Below, piece after piece: positions 39,241 to 46,598 of a stretch of DNA of 64,000 nt; position 1 is the first letter of the stretch, and every line of letters starts with the position of its first letter. The stretch is from Halobellus limi. GTDB lineage: Archaea > Halobacteriota > Halobacteria > Halobacteriales > Haloferacaceae. The position numbers were made by a program, and so were the translations under genes. The stretch lies in NCBI RefSeq assembly GCF_004799685.1, contig NZ_CP031311.1, positions 2,535,355 through 2,599,354 on the forward strand, given 5' to 3'. The notes under the pieces are model-generated. The model searched no databases and was not told where the DNA came from. It saw only the letters and a program-made list of their open reading frames with translations.

Positions 39241-39492
39241 AGATTTTGGTAGATGATATAGAAACGTGAGTTAGAAGCCCTGATATCGTATTTCTACCAT
39301 CTCGAATAACGGAATAAATTCGTATTTATATATGGAAACGGTCGAAGATTAACAATTCAACTTTTGCTACAATAAGTCACCTCTATTTGCTTCTTAATAG
39401 AGAAGTGCGATATATTCGTAGAATATCCGAATCTGGATGTCTTCGAGATACTCGAAGAAAGCTTATTGGACCGGGTGTTCAATGAACGACAA

Positions 39493-40251
39493 ATGAACGA
39501 ACCGCGTCGCCCTGTCACGACCGTCAATACAGCGGTAGAGATCATCGACGCACTTGTCGGATCGCCTGACCAGACGCTCTCGGAGATTTCTCAACAGGTC
39601 GGTCTCGCAGAGAGTACGACGCATCGTCACCTGGCAACGTTGGTTCAGAACGATCTCGTCGTTCGAGACGAGGACACGTACCGGCTCAGTTTCCGTTTCC
39701 TCGATATCGGCACGCAATCGCAACACCAGCATCCGCTCTATACGGCCGGTCGCGAATACATCGATTCGTTAGCCGATGAAACAGGCGAGCGAGTCTGGTT
39801 GGCAACCTGTGAAAACGGGTTCAGCGTGAGTCTCTACTGGGCGAGCGATCGAAACCCCCTCCACCAGCATTCGCGCATCGGAACGAGGCATCACCTCCAT
39901 ATGTCGTCACCCGGAAAAGCGATGCTCGCAGAACTATCTGATGAGGAGGTGCGATCCATCATCGAGAAGCACGGATTGCCGCCGCAGACAGAGGACACGA
40001 TCACGGACGAAGAACAGTTGTTCGGCGAACTGGACGAAATACGAGAGCGCGGCTATGCGACCAGTAGGAACGAAACCGTAGAAGGGATGAGTGCAGTCGC
40101 CGTCTCAGTCAGCGACGAGGTTTCGGGGATTCTCGGCGCGATTGGAATCGGTTGTTCGACGAGCCGGATGACCGAAGACCGCCAGAAACGATTCGTGAGC
40201 CGGTTGCTCGAAACGGCCGACGAGATGGCGATCCGGACGAGGTTTTCTTGA
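39493..40251 (+). CDS. IclR-family transcriptional regulator
   Basis: The 252-residue product has an N-terminal winged helix (QTLSEISQQVGLAESTTHRHLATL, about 29-52). Its IclR effector domain has SSPGKAMLAEL, RERGYATSRNETVEGMSAVAV and GAIGIGCSTSRM. IclR proteins sense small organic acids. It diverges from tctCBA and is the natural regulator of the transporter and of the hydrolase. I chose the ATG at 39493; a TTG nine codons earlier would add residues of no family character. Confidence 0.93.
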   Translation: MNEPRRPVTTVNTAVEIIDALVGSPDQTLSEISQQVGLAESTTHRHLATLVQNDLVVRDEDTYRLSFRFLDIGTQSQHQHPLYTAGREYIDSLADETGERVWLATCENGFSVSLYWASDRNPLHQHSRIGTRHHLHMSSPGKAMLAELSDEEVRSIIEKHGLPPQTEDTITDEEQLFGELDEIRERGYATSRNETVEGMSAVAVSVSDEVSGILGAIGIGCSTSRMTEDRQKRFVSRLLETADEMAIRTRFS

Positions 40252-40528: not shown

Positions 40529-41959
40529 ATGATCGACCCAGTCATCGCAAGCCGGCTTCAGTTCGCCCTCACGACCATCGTCCACATCATCTTCCCGGTG
40601 ATGAGTATGGGACTGGCCCCGTTCATCGTCTTTTTCACCTGGAAGGACATCCGGACCGGAAAGCCGATTTACGAGCGGTTACGCCGCTTCTGGACGAAGA
40701 TATTCGCGGTCTCCTTCGTCGTCGGGACGGTCACGGGCATCGTCCTCGAGTTCGAGTTCGGGACCAACTTCGCCGCGTTCTCGACGACCGCGGGCGAGCT
40801 GTTCGGCGGTCCACTCGCCATCGAGGGGATGATGGCGTTCATGCTGGAGGCGACGTTCCTGGGGGTGTTCGTCTTCGGACGGGAGAAGGTCGGCGACGTC
40901 CTCTACATGATATCCGCCGTCGCGGTCGGCCTGGGGACGTGGCTGTCGGCCGTGTGGATCCTCATCGCCAACTCGTGGATGCAGACGCCGCGGGGGTACG
41001 AACTCGTCACGGAGAACGGACAACAGGTCGTCCACCTCGTCGATCCGATCGCGGCGTATTTGAACCCGCGGTTCGGCTACATGTTCGTCCACATGCAGAA
41101 CGCGGCCGTCGAGTCGGTCGCGCTGTTTATGGCCGGCGTCGCGGCCTACTACGTCTTTCGGCACCACGTGTGGGGGTACCAGGTCGAGGACGTCGACTTC
41201 TGGGAGACCACGCTCAAGATCGCGCTCGTCGGACTGCTCCTCACGGCGCCCCTGCAGGTCGTCCACGGCGACATGTACGGTCGGCACGTCGCCGAGACGC
41301 AACCTCAGAAGTTCGCCGCGATGGAGGCGGTCTGGGAGACCGACTCGTACGTCCCGGAGTACATCATCGCCGTCCCGACCGACCTCGCTGACATCACGAA
41401 CCCGAGAGCCAAGGACCTGTTCGGGATCGGGATTCCGGGCGGTGCGTCGTGGCTCGCCAGTGGCGGCGACCCCACGGCCGAGATACGCGGCCTGAACTCG
41501 TTCGAGACCGAGGCCCCACCGGTCGCGATCGTGTTCTGGGCCTTCCGCGCGATGGTCGGTCTCGGGTTCTGGTTCGTTCTGTTAGCGTTCTGGGGCGGTT
41601 ACCGCTGGTACACCGGCGAGCTGTTCGAGGACGGGCTCCTGCACAAGGCCCTGATGGCGTCCTCACTGCTGGGAGTCCTCGCCACCGAACTGGGATGGAT
41701 CGTCACGGAGGTCGGCCGGCAGCCCTGGGTCATCCAGGGAGTGATGCGGACGAGCGAGGGCGTCTCGCCGGGGTTGACCGGTGCCGAGGCGACGCTCACG
41801 CTCGGCGGGTTCGCGGTGGTGTACCTCGGCTTGCTCGCGTTGTACACCTACGTCGTGGCGCGGATCATCCGGAGCGGGCCGCCGCCGCGCGAGGAACTCC
41901 GATCGACCGCGTCGCCGACGGGGGAGGTCCCGGCTTCGGGGGTGGCGAACGATGACTAG
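40529..41959 (+). CDS. cydA: Cytochrome bd oxidase subunit I (CydA)
   Basis: The 476-residue heme-bearing subunit reduces O2 with quinol electrons. Key residues fall at the same numbers as in the E. coli enzyme with this start: His19 (heme b595/d ligand), Glu99 and Glu107 (EGMMAFMLEATF). His188 in FVHMQNAAVES is the counterpart of E. coli His186. The Q-loop is of the short type. The longer in-frame start at 40307 is rejected for this reason. Upstream, a TATA-like ttaattt (about 40464-40470) could give a leader of about 35 bases. cydB overlaps the end by 8 bases. Confidence 0.96.
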   Translation: MIDPVIASRLQFALTTIVHIIFPVMSMGLAPFIVFFTWKDIRTGKPIYERLRRFWTKIFAVSFVVGTVTGIVLEFEFGTNFAAFSTTAGELFGGPLAIEGMMAFMLEATFLGVFVFGREKVGDVLYMISAVAVGLGTWLSAVWILIANSWMQTPRGYELVTENGQQVVHLVDPIAAYLNPRFGYMFVHMQNAAVESVALFMAGVAAYYVFRHHVWGYQVEDVDFWETTLKIALVGLLLTAPLQVVHGDMYGRHVAETQPQKFAAMEAVWETDSYVPEYIIAVPTDLADITNPRAKDLFGIGIPGGASWLASGGDPTAEIRGLNSFETEAPPVAIVFWAFRAMVGLGFWFVLLAFWGGYRWYTGELFEDGLLHKALMASSLLGVLATELGWIVTEVGRQPWVIQGVMRTSEGVSPGLTGAEATLTLGGFAVVYLGLLALYTYVVARIIRSGPPPREELRSTASPTGEVPASGVANDD

Positions 41960-42953
41960 TCTCGTCGCGCTCGGGGACGGACCCCTGTTCGGGCTCCCGC
42001 TGCCGGAGCTGTGGTTCGCGCTGCTGTTCGTGATGCTCGGTACGTTCCTGTTCCTCGACGGGTTCGACTTCGGGGCCGGCGCGATATTCGCCGCGCTCGA
42101 CGACGACACCGAGCGCGAAACGGTGCTCGCGGCCATCGGGCCGTTCTGGGACGGGAACGAAGTGTGGCTCGTGGTGTTCGGCGGGGCGCTGTTCGCGTCG
42201 TTTCCCTCGGTGTACGCCGACCTCTTCAGCCGGCACTATCTCCTGATGTTCGGCATCCTGGGAGCCCTCATCCTGCGAGGTCTCGCCCCCGAGATGTACG
42301 AACAGCGGCACGATCCGGCGTGGCAGCGCTGGTGGGGGCGGTCGTTCGTCGCCGGGAGCGTCCTGGCACCGTTCCTGCTGGGGGCGTTCGCCGGAAACTG
42401 GCTCGCCGGGAGCGCCCGCTCGTTCACCCTCGTCGGCGTCGTGGTCGGCGTGGCCGTCACGCTCCTGACCGTCGTCTCCGGCGCCGCGTTCCTCCGGCTG
42501 AAGACCGGGCGACGCCTGCCCGAGAGCGTCGCTCGGTATGGCATCGCGGCGGTCGGCGGCTACCTGCTCGCGGTGGTCGCGACGCTCGCGCTGCTCGCCC
42601 TCCGACTGCCGAACGGGCCCGACGCGCTGCTGAGGCTCCCCGTCGTCGTCCCGGTCGTCGCCTCCGTCGCCCTCGCCGCGGGGTACGTCGTCGCCCTCCG
42701 CCGCGGCGCGAACCTGGTCGCGCTCGGTGCGGCCGCCGGCCTCACTTACGCGTTGGTCTCGGTGGTCGCGGTCGTGATGTACCCGGCGGTCGACCCCGCG
42801 ACGGGCGCCACCGTTCGCGAGGCGATCGTCTCGACGCTCCCGCTGAATCTGATGTCGATCGGCGCGGCCCTGTTGTTACCGCTGATCACGACGTACTTCG
42901 TCGTGCTCTACTCGGCCTTCAGCGGCCCGATCTCCGCGGGGGAGGCGTACTGA
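41952..42953 (+). CDS. cydB: Cytochrome bd oxidase subunit II (CydB)
   Basis: The 333-residue subunit has about eight membrane helices and the family N-terminus LPELWFALLFVMLGTFLFLDGFDFGAGAIF (two parts), followed by IGPFWDGNEVWLVVFGGALFASFP. It pairs with CydA. The ATG lies in an 8-base overlap with cydA, so translation is coupled. It is of normal length for the family, with a C-terminus of TTYFVVLYSAFSGPI. Confidence 0.95.
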   Translation: MTSLVALGDGPLFGLPLPELWFALLFVMLGTFLFLDGFDFGAGAIFAALDDDTERETVLAAIGPFWDGNEVWLVVFGGALFASFPSVYADLFSRHYLLMFGILGALILRGLAPEMYEQRHDPAWQRWWGRSFVAGSVLAPFLLGAFAGNWLAGSARSFTLVGVVVGVAVTLLTVVSGAAFLRLKTGRRLPESVARYGIAAVGGYLLAVVATLALLALRLPNGPDALLRLPVVVPVVASVALAAGYVVALRRGANLVALGAAAGLTYALVSVVAVVMYPAVDPATGATVREAIVSTLPLNLMSIGAALLLPLITTYFVVLYSAFSGPISAGEAY

Positions 42954-42955
42954 CC

Positions 42956-43189
42956 GTGGTGAGAGCGCCGTCGTCGGGAGAGACGGACACCCGCGTGCGG
43001 TTGGCCTCTCGCGTCCTCGTCACCTGGGTCGAACTCGTCGCCGTCGGGTTCGCGGGCGCGGTGTTCGGGGAAGTCGCGTCCGGGCCGCCACAGCTGATCG
43101 GCTATCTACTGACGGTGCTCGCGCTCGTGGGGGTCTTTATGTACAACGTCGATCGACTGATCGTCGAGCGAGTCTCCGATGCGGGGTGA
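42956..43189 (+). CDS. Small two-helix membrane protein after cydAB
   Basis: The 77-residue frame begins at GTG two bases after the cydB stop (a second GTG follows at once). The N-terminus is polar (RAPSSGETDTRVRLA). Two membrane helices follow (VLVTWVELVAVGFAGAVFG, then LIGYLLTVLALVGVFMYNV) with a short loop, and the tail is charged. The spacing indicates it is the third gene of the oxidase operon. Bacterial bd oxidases need tiny helical subunits (CydX/CydH); this could play an analogous part, although it is not a recognisable homologue. Confidence 0.7.
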   Translation: MVRAPSSGETDTRVRLASRVLVTWVELVAVGFAGAVFGEVASGPPQLIGYLLTVLALVGVFMYNVDRLIVERVSDAG

Positions 43190-43309: not shown

Positions 43310-43549
43310 TCAACTCGGCCGACGTGGAACCCGATCGAACAGGCCCCCGCGTCGTCTGCTGGCGATGCCGAACAGAATGGCCGCGCTCGGCACGAACAGC
43401 GAGGCGCCGAGCGCCGTCACGATGTCGTCGTTCGTCACTCCGTACGCGATTCCGGCGGTCGCGATCGCGAGCGCGACGACCGCTGGGAAGCAGAGTCGAC
43501 ACCGGAGTATCGCCGCGGTTCGACGCCTGATCACACCGAGTACGCGCAT
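43310..43549 (-). CDS. Small two-helix membrane protein, hypothetical
   Basis: The 79-residue frame starts MRVLGVIRRRTAA and has two hydrophobic segments (FPAVVALAIATAGIAYGV and IVTALGASLFVPSAAILFGIA) with basic ends. It is consistent with a real membrane protein and with host codon bias, but there is no homology I can name. It lies convergent to the cydAB unit and divergent from the HTH regulator. A longer in-frame start at 43663 would overlap the regulator start and is unlikely. Confidence 0.5.
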   Translation of the reverse strand: MRVLGVIRRRTAAILRCRLCFPAVVALAIATAGIAYGVTNDDIVTALGASLFVPSAAILFGIASRRRGGLFDRVPRRPS

Positions 43550-43665: not shown

Positions 43666-44385
43666 ATGTACGACTTTAGCTTCACGATCACCTACGACGT
43701 CGGTGCCGACGAGTACGCGGACCAGTTCATCGACCGCGAGTCGCTCCGGTCCGAGGCGCTCTACGCGTGTCTGGACCCCTCGAGGATGTGGGTCCTGGAG
43801 CTGGTCACGGGCGATCCGGAGGACCTGCGGGCGATCGACGACCTGTTACTCGACGAATCGATCGATCGGTACTCCGTCAGTGGTCGGTCGTGTGAAGCGA
43901 CCCGTCGGGTGAGCCAGATAGCCGACAAGCGCCGTCAGCGGATGACCTACACCTACGTCTCCGACGTCTCCTACTGCGACGCCATCCCGTTGATCGCGGT
44001 CAAGTACTTCTCCGACGGCGTGCTGTTCAGGCGGACGCGGTCCGGCGAGACGGCCCAGTGGCACGTCCTCGTCCAGGACGACGAGAACGTCGGGATGCTG
44101 TACGACACGGTGAGCGGGCGACTCGCGGACGGGCTCCAGTTCTCGTTCGATCACCTGACCGAACTCGAACAGTGGGAGAGTCGGCTGCTGTCTCCGAGCG
44201 GGATCCGCGCCGAACAGCGGGAGGTGCTGACCGCGGCGGTGAACCGCGGCTACTTCGAGACGCCTCGGGAGGTCACCCTGGAGGAACTCGCGACCGAATT
44301 GGGACTCCCCCGTTCGACGGTGTCCTACCGACTCCGACGAGCGACCGCCGAACTCGCAAAAGCCTTTGTCGAACAAGAGTTATGA
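43666..44385 (+). CDS. HTH-10 (bacterio-opsin activator-type) transcriptional regulator
   Basis: The 239-residue product has a C-terminal HTH_10 domain (LTAAVNRGYFETPREVTLEELATELGL in parts, then PRSTVSYRLRRATAELAKAF) as in Bat and DmsR-type haloarchaeal regulators. Residues 1-170 form a sensory region containing three cysteines (YACLDP, RSCEA, SYCDA) that could be redox-active. Location between cydAB and a rhodanese/ferritin/ferredoxin set suggests control of oxygen or redox genes, by inference. Start chosen at MYDFSFTITYDV. Confidence 0.88.
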   Translation: MYDFSFTITYDVGADEYADQFIDRESLRSEALYACLDPSRMWVLELVTGDPEDLRAIDDLLLDESIDRYSVSGRSCEATRRVSQIADKRRQRMTYTYVSDVSYCDAIPLIAVKYFSDGVLFRRTRSGETAQWHVLVQDDENVGMLYDTVSGRLADGLQFSFDHLTELEQWESRLLSPSGIRAEQREVLTAAVNRGYFETPREVTLEELATELGLPRSTVSYRLRRATAELAKAFVEQEL

Positions 44386-44437
44386 TACAGAGTACCAGAG
44401 GATCGGCCCACGAGATCGCGCCGACGAGAGGAACAGT

Positions 44438-45307
44438 ATGACCGCATCGTCGTACCCCGAGTCCGTGTTGGTCTCCCCCGACTGGGTCGCAGAGAGGCTC
44501 GATCGGTTCGAGTCCGACGACCCCGGGTACCGACTGCTGGAAGTCGACGTCAACACGGCGTTCTACGACACCGGGCACGCCCCGGGGGCGGTGAAGATCG
44601 ACTGGGAGACGGACCTCCGCGCGGACGATCGACACGACATCGTCGGCGCCGACGAACTCGAACGGCTCCTGGGGGACTGCGGCATCACCGACGAGACGAC
44701 GGTCGTGGTCTACGGCGACGACTCGAACTGGTTCGCCGCGCACATGTACTGGCAGCTCACGTACTACGGCCACCCCGACGTCAGGATTATGGACGGTGGT
44801 CGTGGCTACTGGGTCGATCACGGGTACCCGCTGTCGACGGCGTCGGTCAGTCCGCCGACGGTGCAGTACGGCAGGTCGCTGTCGCCGCCGGCCGACCCGT
44901 CCATCAGAGCCTCTCGGGAGGACGTCCGGGACGCGATCGGGACGGACACGGTGTTCGTCGACGTTCGGCTCCCCGAGGAGTACCGGGGCGAGATCACGGC
45001 CCCGCCGGGGACGAACGAGACCGCGATGCGCGGCGGGCACCTCCCCGGCGCGAAGAACGTGTTCTGGGCCGACAACGTCCGGCCGGACATGCGTTTCAAA
45101 TCCCCCGCGGCGCTCCGAGAGGTGTATCGCGCACACGGCGTCGAGCCGGGTGACGACGTCATCGTGTACTGCCGCATCGGCGAACGGTCGTCGCTCACGT
45201 GGTTCGCGCTCTCGGAGCTCCTCGGCTACGAGTCGGTCCGCAACTACGACGGCTCCTGGACCGAGTGGGGCAACATGATCGGGACGCCGATCGAGACCGG
45301 CGAGTGA
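44438..45307 (+). CDS. Thiosulfate sulfurtransferase (two-domain rhodanese)
   Basis: The 289-residue product has two rhodanese domains. The N-terminal one (about 10-135) has GHAPGAVKIDW and VVVYGDDSNWFAAHMYW, with an Asp in place of the active Cys. The C-terminal one (about 150-285) has the active-site loop YCRIGERSS with Cys245 and the DGSWTEWGN end. It transfers sulfane sulfur from thiosulfate or a similar donor to a thiol acceptor. It follows the HTH regulator by 52 bases. Confidence 0.94.
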   Translation: MTASSYPESVLVSPDWVAERLDRFESDDPGYRLLEVDVNTAFYDTGHAPGAVKIDWETDLRADDRHDIVGADELERLLGDCGITDETTVVVYGDDSNWFAAHMYWQLTYYGHPDVRIMDGGRGYWVDHGYPLSTASVSPPTVQYGRSLSPPADPSIRASREDVRDAIGTDTVFVDVRLPEEYRGEITAPPGTNETAMRGGHLPGAKNVFWADNVRPDMRFKSPAALREVYRAHGVEPGDDVIVYCRIGERSSLTWFALSELLGYESVRNYDGSWTEWGNMIGTPIETGE

Positions 45308-45519
45308 TACCGCGGGCGCCGGTGCGCCCCGTCGGCGGACTCCGCCGACCGCTGTTTTTGCCCCGCCATCTCGGGGAACGAACGCGCGTTCGAGCGCGAG
45401 CTTCGATCCTCGAACTGGCAGTAGAAACGCCGATTGAGGCCGTTATCGCCGTCTGAGTGCGACGGTTGTCGAGTGACAAACGAACGGTGATGCCTCTGCC
45501 GGCGGTACGTTCTGTTGCA

Positions 45520-46179
45520 ATGTCCGACGGGAAAGAACACGACAGCGGTTCGGTGGAACCGGGCGACACGAGCAAACGAGTCGGGATGGAAGTCATTCGC
45601 GAGCGGGGCGTCGATCCCGAGGAACTCCGCGAGAAACTCGTCGACGCGATCGGCGCGGAGTTCACGACGTACTACTACTACACGAACCTCCGAATGCACC
45701 TCGCCGGCGAGGAGGACTACAAGGAGATCACCGAGGACGCGCGCCTCGAAGATCGGGCACACTTCGAACTCGTCGTCCCGCGCGTGTACGAACTCGAGGG
45801 CTCGCTCCCGAACGACATCCGTGAGTTCGCAGACCGGGCCTCCTGTCCCGACGCGGAGGTACCGACGCCGATGGACGACGACGGCGGCTTCGATACCGAG
45901 GATCTCGAAGTCGAGGACATTCTGGAGGTGCTTCTGGAGGCAGAGCGGTGCGCCATCCGGACCTGGTCGGAGATCTGTGACATGACTCGGGGTGCCGATC
46001 CGCGGACCTACGACATGGCCCAGCGCATCCTCAACGAGGAGATCGACCACGAGGCCTGGTTCATCGAGCTCCTCTCGAAGGAGCGCGACGACGAAATCAA
46101 CCCGGCCGGTCACTTCGCCCGCGGCGAACCGGGCGATGCGCCCTACTCGACGAACAACCGGTTCAACGACTCGGCCTGA
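45520..46179 (+). CDS. Dps-like ferritin-family protein
   Basis: The 219-residue four-helix-bundle protein has paired metal-site motifs ([20 protein letters not shown] in the first helix pair, [19 protein letters not shown], then [19 protein letters not shown] and [13 protein letters not shown]). The two cysteines of the third block (C-x7-C), with one in ASCPD, recall the thioferritin/DPSL subgroup; assignment to that subgroup is tentative. It would oxidise Fe(II) with peroxide and protect DNA. Start [10 protein letters not shown] was preferred over two upstream Mets that add non-family residues. Confidence 0.86.
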
Positions 46180-46214
46180 GCGACGATGGCCGATCCCACG
46201 GGCTCCCGTCCGAG

Positions 46215-46598
46215 ATGACAGGACGAGCGGACGACACGTGGACAGTCACCGTCGTCGTACCGGAGGAATCGTCACTGGACGCGGCGGGCGAAACCGTCGA
46301 ACTCGAGGTGGCCGAACACGAGACGATACTCGCAGCCGCGCGTTCGGCGGGGGTATGGCTCCCGGCGGACTGTCAGCAGGGCTGGTGTATCACCTGTGCC
46401 GCCCGACTCGTCGAGGGCGACGTCGTTCATCCCGACGCTCGTCGGTACTACGACGGGGATCGCGAGGCCGACTTCGTGCTCACCTGCACCGCGAAGCCGC
46501 GGGCCGATACGACCGTCGTCGTGGATCGGTACGACGACCTCCTCGAACACCGCGCCGAGCGCGGCAAGCCCCCCGGAAGCGCCAAAATTCGGGGCTGA
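46215..46598 (+). CDS. 2Fe-2S ferredoxin
   Basis: The 127-residue plant-type ferredoxin has the cluster ligands in CQQGWCITCAARL and a fourth Cys in FVLTCTAKP. The acidic N-terminal 35 residues are usual in halophiles. It probably passes electrons to or from an unidentified partner. It follows the ferritin-like gene by 35 bases on the same strand, so joint transcription is plausible, with possible use in iron release or redox buffering. Confidence 0.94.
   Translation: MTGRADDTWTVTVVVPEESSLDAAGETVELEVAEHETILAAARSAGVWLPADCQQGWCITCAARLVEGDVVHPDARRYYDGDREADFVLTCTAKPRADTTVVVDRYDDLLEHRAERGKPPGSAKIRG

Follow-up and report, generated by a model that had tools for sequence, protein, structure and literature searches.

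In Escherichia coli, cydX lies directly after cydB, and YbgE (PF09600) is another small membrane protein encoded with cydAB. The subunits of the CydX type are described as single helices of 30–37 residues (PMC6853902, PMC8585947), and the E. coli operon is given as cydABX (PMC8585947). In the passages of the same papers that deal with contacts, E. coli CydX and AppX touch helices 1, 5 and 6 of CydA or AppC (PMC6853902, PMC8585947), and a review lists helices 1, 4, 5, 6 and 7, near heme b558, as the contacts of CydX (PMC8951039). According to that review, CydH obstructs the access route to heme b595 at CydA TM1/TM9, and the mycobacterial bd functions with two subunits (PMC8951039). For the haloarchaea, the available part of a curated list names only cydA and cydB in Haloferax volcanii (PMC8305020). 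Full-text searches of open-licence PMC papers did not reveal any account of a third gene behind cydAB in haloarchaea; most subscription papers lie outside that scope, and an earlier mention there is possible.

The DNA analysed here, referred to as the window, is a stretch of 64,000 nucleotides from Halobellus limi. It carries a cydA–cydB pair with a third, small gene behind it (Table 1), the product of which is called the 77-mer below. No report of co-purification of the 77-mer with CydAB was found in the open-licence PMC literature.

The cyd locus and its third gene

The two larger genes are a true cytochrome bd oxidase pair: PF01654, PF02322 and the equivalent of E. coli H186, a ligand of heme b558, are all present. 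This equivalent is H188 of the window CydA, as counted in the alignment with 6rko_A. In the structural model of CydA (mean pLDDT 67, pTM 0.72), TM5 spans residues 180–213 and TM6 residues 222–257; the pLDDT is 91–97 for residues 191–240 and 75 for residues 241–250, and the Q-loop is poorly modelled. A gene for an IclR-type regulator (39466–40251) lies immediately upstream of cydA on the same strand. Further downstream, positions 43666–46598 encode, all on the + strand, an HTH_10 regulator with an HVO_2928 N-domain, a rhodanese, a ferritin-like protein and a 2Fe-2S ferredoxin.

Table 1. Features of the cyd locus, in positions of the window.
Feature	Positions	Strand	Remarks
cydA, bd oxidase subunit I, 476 aa	40529..41959	+	PF01654, E 3.8e-145; aligns with E. 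coli CydA 6rko_A
CydA residues 195–251 (second half of TM5, short loop, most of TM6)	41111..41281	+	E195, F210, H212, H213, V214, W215, G216, Y217, E226, A235 and L242 specific to the clade bearing the 77-mer
cydB, bd oxidase subunit II, 333 aa	41952..42953	+	PF02322, E 1.5e-69; 8-nt overlap with cydA
77-residue two-helix membrane protein	42956..43189	+	GTG start, 2 nt past the cydB stop; homologues at 93 cydB loci
79-aa small membrane protein	43310..43549	-	two hydrophobic segments; motif [DG]D[IV]VTALG; transcribed towards the 77-mer gene; linkage to cyd in many haloarchaea

The stop codon of cydB is TGA at 42951–42953, and the frame of the third gene opens with GTG at 42956–42958 and ends at 43189 after 77 codons. 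Its product has two hydrophobic segments (residues 20–36 and 47–63), and an AlphaFold2 model of modest confidence (mean pLDDT 73, pTM 0.41) contains helices at residues 8–39 and 45–76. These data bear out the earlier note on this DNA, which had described a 77-residue two-helix protein beginning two bases after cydB. As compared to the homologue of Halobellus rarus (L202), the 77-mer shows 87% amino acid identity over 70 codons, with a dN of 0.07, a dS of 0.25 and 8, 2 and 13 substitutions at the first, second and third codon positions, respectively; in a scan of named genomes, H. rarus was the closest named relative (83%). Against five more distant homologues, dN/dS was 0.24–0.35. Synonymous change thus exceeded non-synonymous change 2.8- to 4.2-fold in the six comparisons, revealing that the frame is a real gene under purifying selection, and no chance frame. 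In a genome of the same genus as the window (G217), the gene is split over two frames (L260), reflecting either decay or a sequencing error.

With starts set by script, the homologues are about 64–117 residues long. Across 35 aligned members, R19, T23, W24, L27, G34, G43, V58 and N64 do not vary, and S18, E26, G31, G38, P44, Y50 and L55 are almost invariant. E26 is kept in 57 of 63 distinct cores, a set for which S18 and R19 formed part of the search motif, from which L218, a row with TR, was left out, and in which at least two rows (L004 and L005) are out of register. The conserved residues of TM1 lie on one helical face (shuffle p 0.00035 for residues 20–40 and 0.03 for residues 18–38), and the same test found no conserved face in TM2.

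The 77-mer matched no model of Pfam or NCBIfam above the cut-off (best E 0.13 and 0.02, respectively), nothing in PHROGs at E 0.1 and, as a 15-row profile, no PDB chain at E<1. Individual scans of the 35 family members gave one match to each of two unrelated Pfam families (E 0.007–0.009) and one to an NCBIfam model (E 7e-4); we take these isolated matches to be chance.

Among the described small subunits, CydX, CydS and AppX resemble the 77-mer in being small membrane proteins of the cyd operon encoded after cydB. However, they consist of one helix and 30–37 residues, whereas the window protein has two predicted helices and 77 residues. The CydX family model (PF08173) matched neither the window protein at E<1 nor any of the 35 members at E<0.01. 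In 60 relatives, no PF08173 match rose above the cut-off, although this model of 27 positions is insensitive and exceeded its threshold in just 2 of the 14 control genomes. By its predicted helices and the missing sequence match, the 77-mer is not a CydX. YbgE is likewise a small membrane protein, encoded together with cydAB in E. coli; PF09600 was absent from the matches of the window protein, matched none of the 35 members at E<0.01, and in the 60 relatives gave nothing above the cut-off and six weak matches below it (best E 6e-4). CydH/CydY (YnhF) of E. coli bd-I is likewise a small accessory subunit of CydAB. It is, however, described as having one helix, being encoded outside the operon and binding at TM1/TM9 (PMC8951039, PMC8585947), whereas the 77-mer gene always stands beside cydB at E<1e-7.

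Linkage to cydB and distribution on the CydAB tree

A search with PF02322 detected cydB in 234 of 391 genomes of the class, above the cut-off in 224, and follow-up searches yielded 259 cydB loci, including a few fragments, in 224 genomes. In the same 391 genomes, the 77-mer gave 96 matches at E<1e-3 (one gene being counted as two pieces), of which 94 lay downstream of 93 cydB genes, on the same strand and within 2 kb; the two away from cydB had the poorest scores (E 2e-4 and 8e-4). All 92 matches that reached E<1e-7, from 86 genomes, were downstream of cydB on the same strand. The association is strong, and the 77-mer is dedicated to cydAB. Most of the genes (43 of 47) start between -8 and +5 nt from the cydB stop, in a set that has script-assigned starts and includes two loci held twice and five that are nearly identical.

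In a scan of named genomes, which partly overlap the 391, 38 loci of the 77-mer were found, 37 of them under haloarchaeal names (among them Halobellus, Halorientalis, Natrinema, Haloarcula and Halonotius) and one labelled ‘uncultured archaeon’. Homologues thus occur in many genera, and also on plasmids. In the 20 plasmid records covered, out of 26, the homologue is called a ‘hypothetical protein’, coincides with no listed gene (the gene table being incomplete) or stands in an unannotated record; one plasmid record lists cydA, cydB and then, 3 nt on, a ‘hypothetical protein’. No match was found among phages. In 294 phylum-wide genomes, for which the share within and outside the class is not stated, all six matches were relatives within the order.

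The remaining 166 of the 259 cydB loci have no match to the 77-mer. A profile search in all frames at 154 of these 166 loci found no diverged copy (the best match, at E 1.3, was misplaced or on the wrong strand); the stretches searched mostly extend about 1.1–1.5 kb past cydB, and a few stop sooner at a contig end.

To place these loci on a tree of CydA and CydB, we started from 299 loci, of which 261 had a near-complete CydA and CydB and enough downstream DNA, and 245 remained after the removal of identical pairs. Of these 245 pairs, 98 carry the 77-mer. In the FastTree phylogeny, 97 of the 98 bearers, including the split-frame gene, fall into a single clade of 105 (support 99), and the other 140 rows hold one bearer. 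An IQ-TREE analysis of 59 rows, from which that outlier was absent, recovered the clade (33 rows, SH-aLRT 96), and a tree of CydB only was less tidy, with 8 changes over 218 rows. The outlier (L295, G130:C103) is a remnant of the 77-mer with an in-frame stop; it lies 1.27 kb downstream of a cydB that belongs to the other deep clade. The earlier note had proposed to look for the gene after cydB in other haloarchaea, and would have taken its absence there in most relatives as a refutation. Class-wide, the gene is indeed absent from most loci, as counted above, which goes against the note; this absence is explained by its distribution in one clade, where 97 of 105 members possess it.

Gene presence changed seven times on the tree, for which one gain and a few losses would be the simplest history. 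Eight of the 105 clade members lack the 77-mer, which is therefore not strictly required, and the oxidase can exist without it. Seven of these eight keep the CydA residue E195, discussed below. Four gene-less members that retain E195 (L068, L095, L198 and L200) belong to one genus (g69) and sit on more than one branch.

A second small protein, which the note on the 77-mer does not list, is linked to the same loci. When 381 genomes were searched with a four-row profile of the cyd-linked 79-mers, 48 matches reached E<1e-8. Of these, 43 are no more than 2 kb away from a cydB, and 28 of the 43 are convergent with it, being downstream and on the other strand. The dN/dS of the 79-mer is 0.23–0.53, indicating weaker constraint than that on the 77-mer. 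At Natrinema loci, a relative of the 79-mer follows the 77-mer. The linkage of the 79-mer strengthens the view that cyd loci recruit small membrane proteins.

At 13 loci of one genus (g6: L023, L024, L030, L063, L064, L066, L069, L073, L082, L083, L088, L094 and L120), a 68-aa relative of the 79-mer is encoded 23–87 nt behind cydB on the same strand, in the usual place of the 77-mer. We considered this protein as a diverged 77-mer and rejected the assignment, as the profile comparison gave a probability of 0.2%, with a 16-row alignment that included three unrelated 67-aa rows. A third small protein, of 67 aa with two hydrophobic segments and the motif NRTxSALLWG, is encoded about 50–790 nt behind cydB at loci without the 77-mer (L089, L108, L118 and others); two partial matches to it lie further from cydB.

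CydA TM5 and TM6 in the bearing clade

The CydA of the bearing clade is altered in TM5 and TM6. When the clade was compared with the other 49 rows of the large clade and with the other deep clade, 11 of the 14 most clade-specific columns of CydA and CydB fell within CydA 195–251 (Table 1), a stretch picked after the ranking had been seen, and in which several columns belong to one remodelled loop (HHVWGY) and are not independent. Under a uniform procedure, in which every clade of 15–130 rows was compared with its nearest sister group and all others, the bearing clade had 8 columns in this stretch, as compared to 0–3 in 33 other clades, of which many are nested; the two larger clades around the bearing clade had 8 and 6. 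The clade-specific columns of CydB scored lower and were scattered, and no clade-specific cluster at TM1/TM9 of CydA was found among the leading columns.

E195 is present in 97 of 105 pairs inside the clade (90 bearers and 7 gene-less members) and in none of the 140 outside, all of which have L, I or V. Six bearers that form a subclade have L195 instead, which shows that the 77-mer does not depend on E195. The spacing between TM5 and TM6 is 57 in all 76 measurable clade members (29 being unmeasurable). It is 50–85 in 38 neighbours, four of which have 57 (11 unmeasurable), and 50 in eight members of the other deep clade (83 unmeasurable).

E195 changed four times on the tree, and the gene seven times. 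We examined E195 as an independently repeated co-change with the gene, for which independent sister pairs give no support; the coincidence of the gene with the change in CydA therefore counts as one event. Mutual information between the 77-mer and CydA/CydB (96 rows, effective number 35) placed 36 of the 50 top pairs in CydB and none in CydA 195–251, where about four would be expected from its share of pairs. As the leading columns are clade markers, we regard this covariation as uninformative; at face value, it points to CydB, and not to TM5–TM6.

In bacteria, the CydX/CydS/AppX protein sits at TM1, TM5 and TM6 of CydA. Given that the clade that gained the 77-mer changed its CydA where the bacterial small subunit sits, we infer that the 77-mer may occupy the CydX niche. 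The earlier note had suggested an unrelated two-helix protein in this niche. The dedication to cydAB (92 of 92 matches), the lack of detectable kinship with CydX or YbgE and the altered TM5–TM6 agree with this suggestion, whereas the covariation does not support the TM5–TM6 site.

Role of the third protein

The 77-mer is probably part of the bd oxidase or a helper in its building. We favour, with slightly more conviction than doubt, the reading that it is a dedicated accessory subunit of one haloarchaeal bd clade, packed on TM5–TM6 of CydA in the niche of CydX and unrelated to CydX. As the start and stop codons abut or overlap, the protein would be made together with CydB from the same message. 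It would insert as a helical hairpin, with both ends probably cytoplasmic. The conserved face of its TM1 (T23, W24, L27, G31, G34 and G38) would then pack on TM5–TM6 of CydA, which is where CydX/CydS sits in bacteria and includes the helix carrying H188. In this position, the 77-mer might stabilize the helix bundles that hold the hemes and seal the side facing the lipid.

The genomic linkage would equally fit a dedicated assembly factor that inserts the hemes or pairs CydA with CydB and then leaves, being absent from the finished enzyme. The conserved R19, W24, E26 and N64 could serve transient contacts, and the gene is missing in 8 of the 105 clade members. Nevertheless, we consider such a factor rather unlikely, since the gain coincides with a change in the TM5–TM6 surface of CydA that is kept throughout the clade, which better suits a lasting partner. 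A different placement of a genuine subunit is suggested by the covarying columns, most of which are in CydB (36 of 50), and by the precedent of CydH, described as closing the path to heme b595 at TM1/TM9 (PMC8951039): the 77-mer might plug a gas or quinone entry, or sit on CydB. However, the most clade-specific columns of CydA are those of TM5–TM6, and the columns of CydB are lower-scoring and scattered, so that a task like that of CydH/CydY seems distinctly improbable.

The 77-mer could also be a passenger or stress protein that shares the operon, or a partner of the 79-mer rather than of the oxidase, as the 79-mer family also shows linkage to cyd (43 of its 48 strong matches are no further than 2 kb from a cydB) and losses of the 77-mer occur. 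Yet the 77-mer is never found away from cydB at E<1e-7, across many genera and plasmids, and relatives of the 79-mer are present at cyd loci without it; we regard this explanation as very improbable. A broader reading, which we hold only tentatively and with slightly more doubt than conviction, is that an archaeal bd accessory subunit was invented independently of the bacteria: one haloarchaeal clade would have gained a two-helix third subunit and simultaneously reshaped the TM5–TM6 hairpin of its CydA, with a membrane glutamate seven residues from the histidine equivalent to H186. Together with the 79-mer and its 68-aa relative, the haloarchaeal bd oxidases would then be enzymes with several unrelated small subunits.

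Some bd oxidases have extra small subunits and others, those of the mycobacteria, have none. With one clade possessing an unrelated two-helix protein, close relatives lacking it, and a CydA that is markedly altered where contact would be expected, the reason for this difference becomes testable by swaps and deletions among related enzymes. Expression or structure work on the bd oxidase of this clade should include the third gene.
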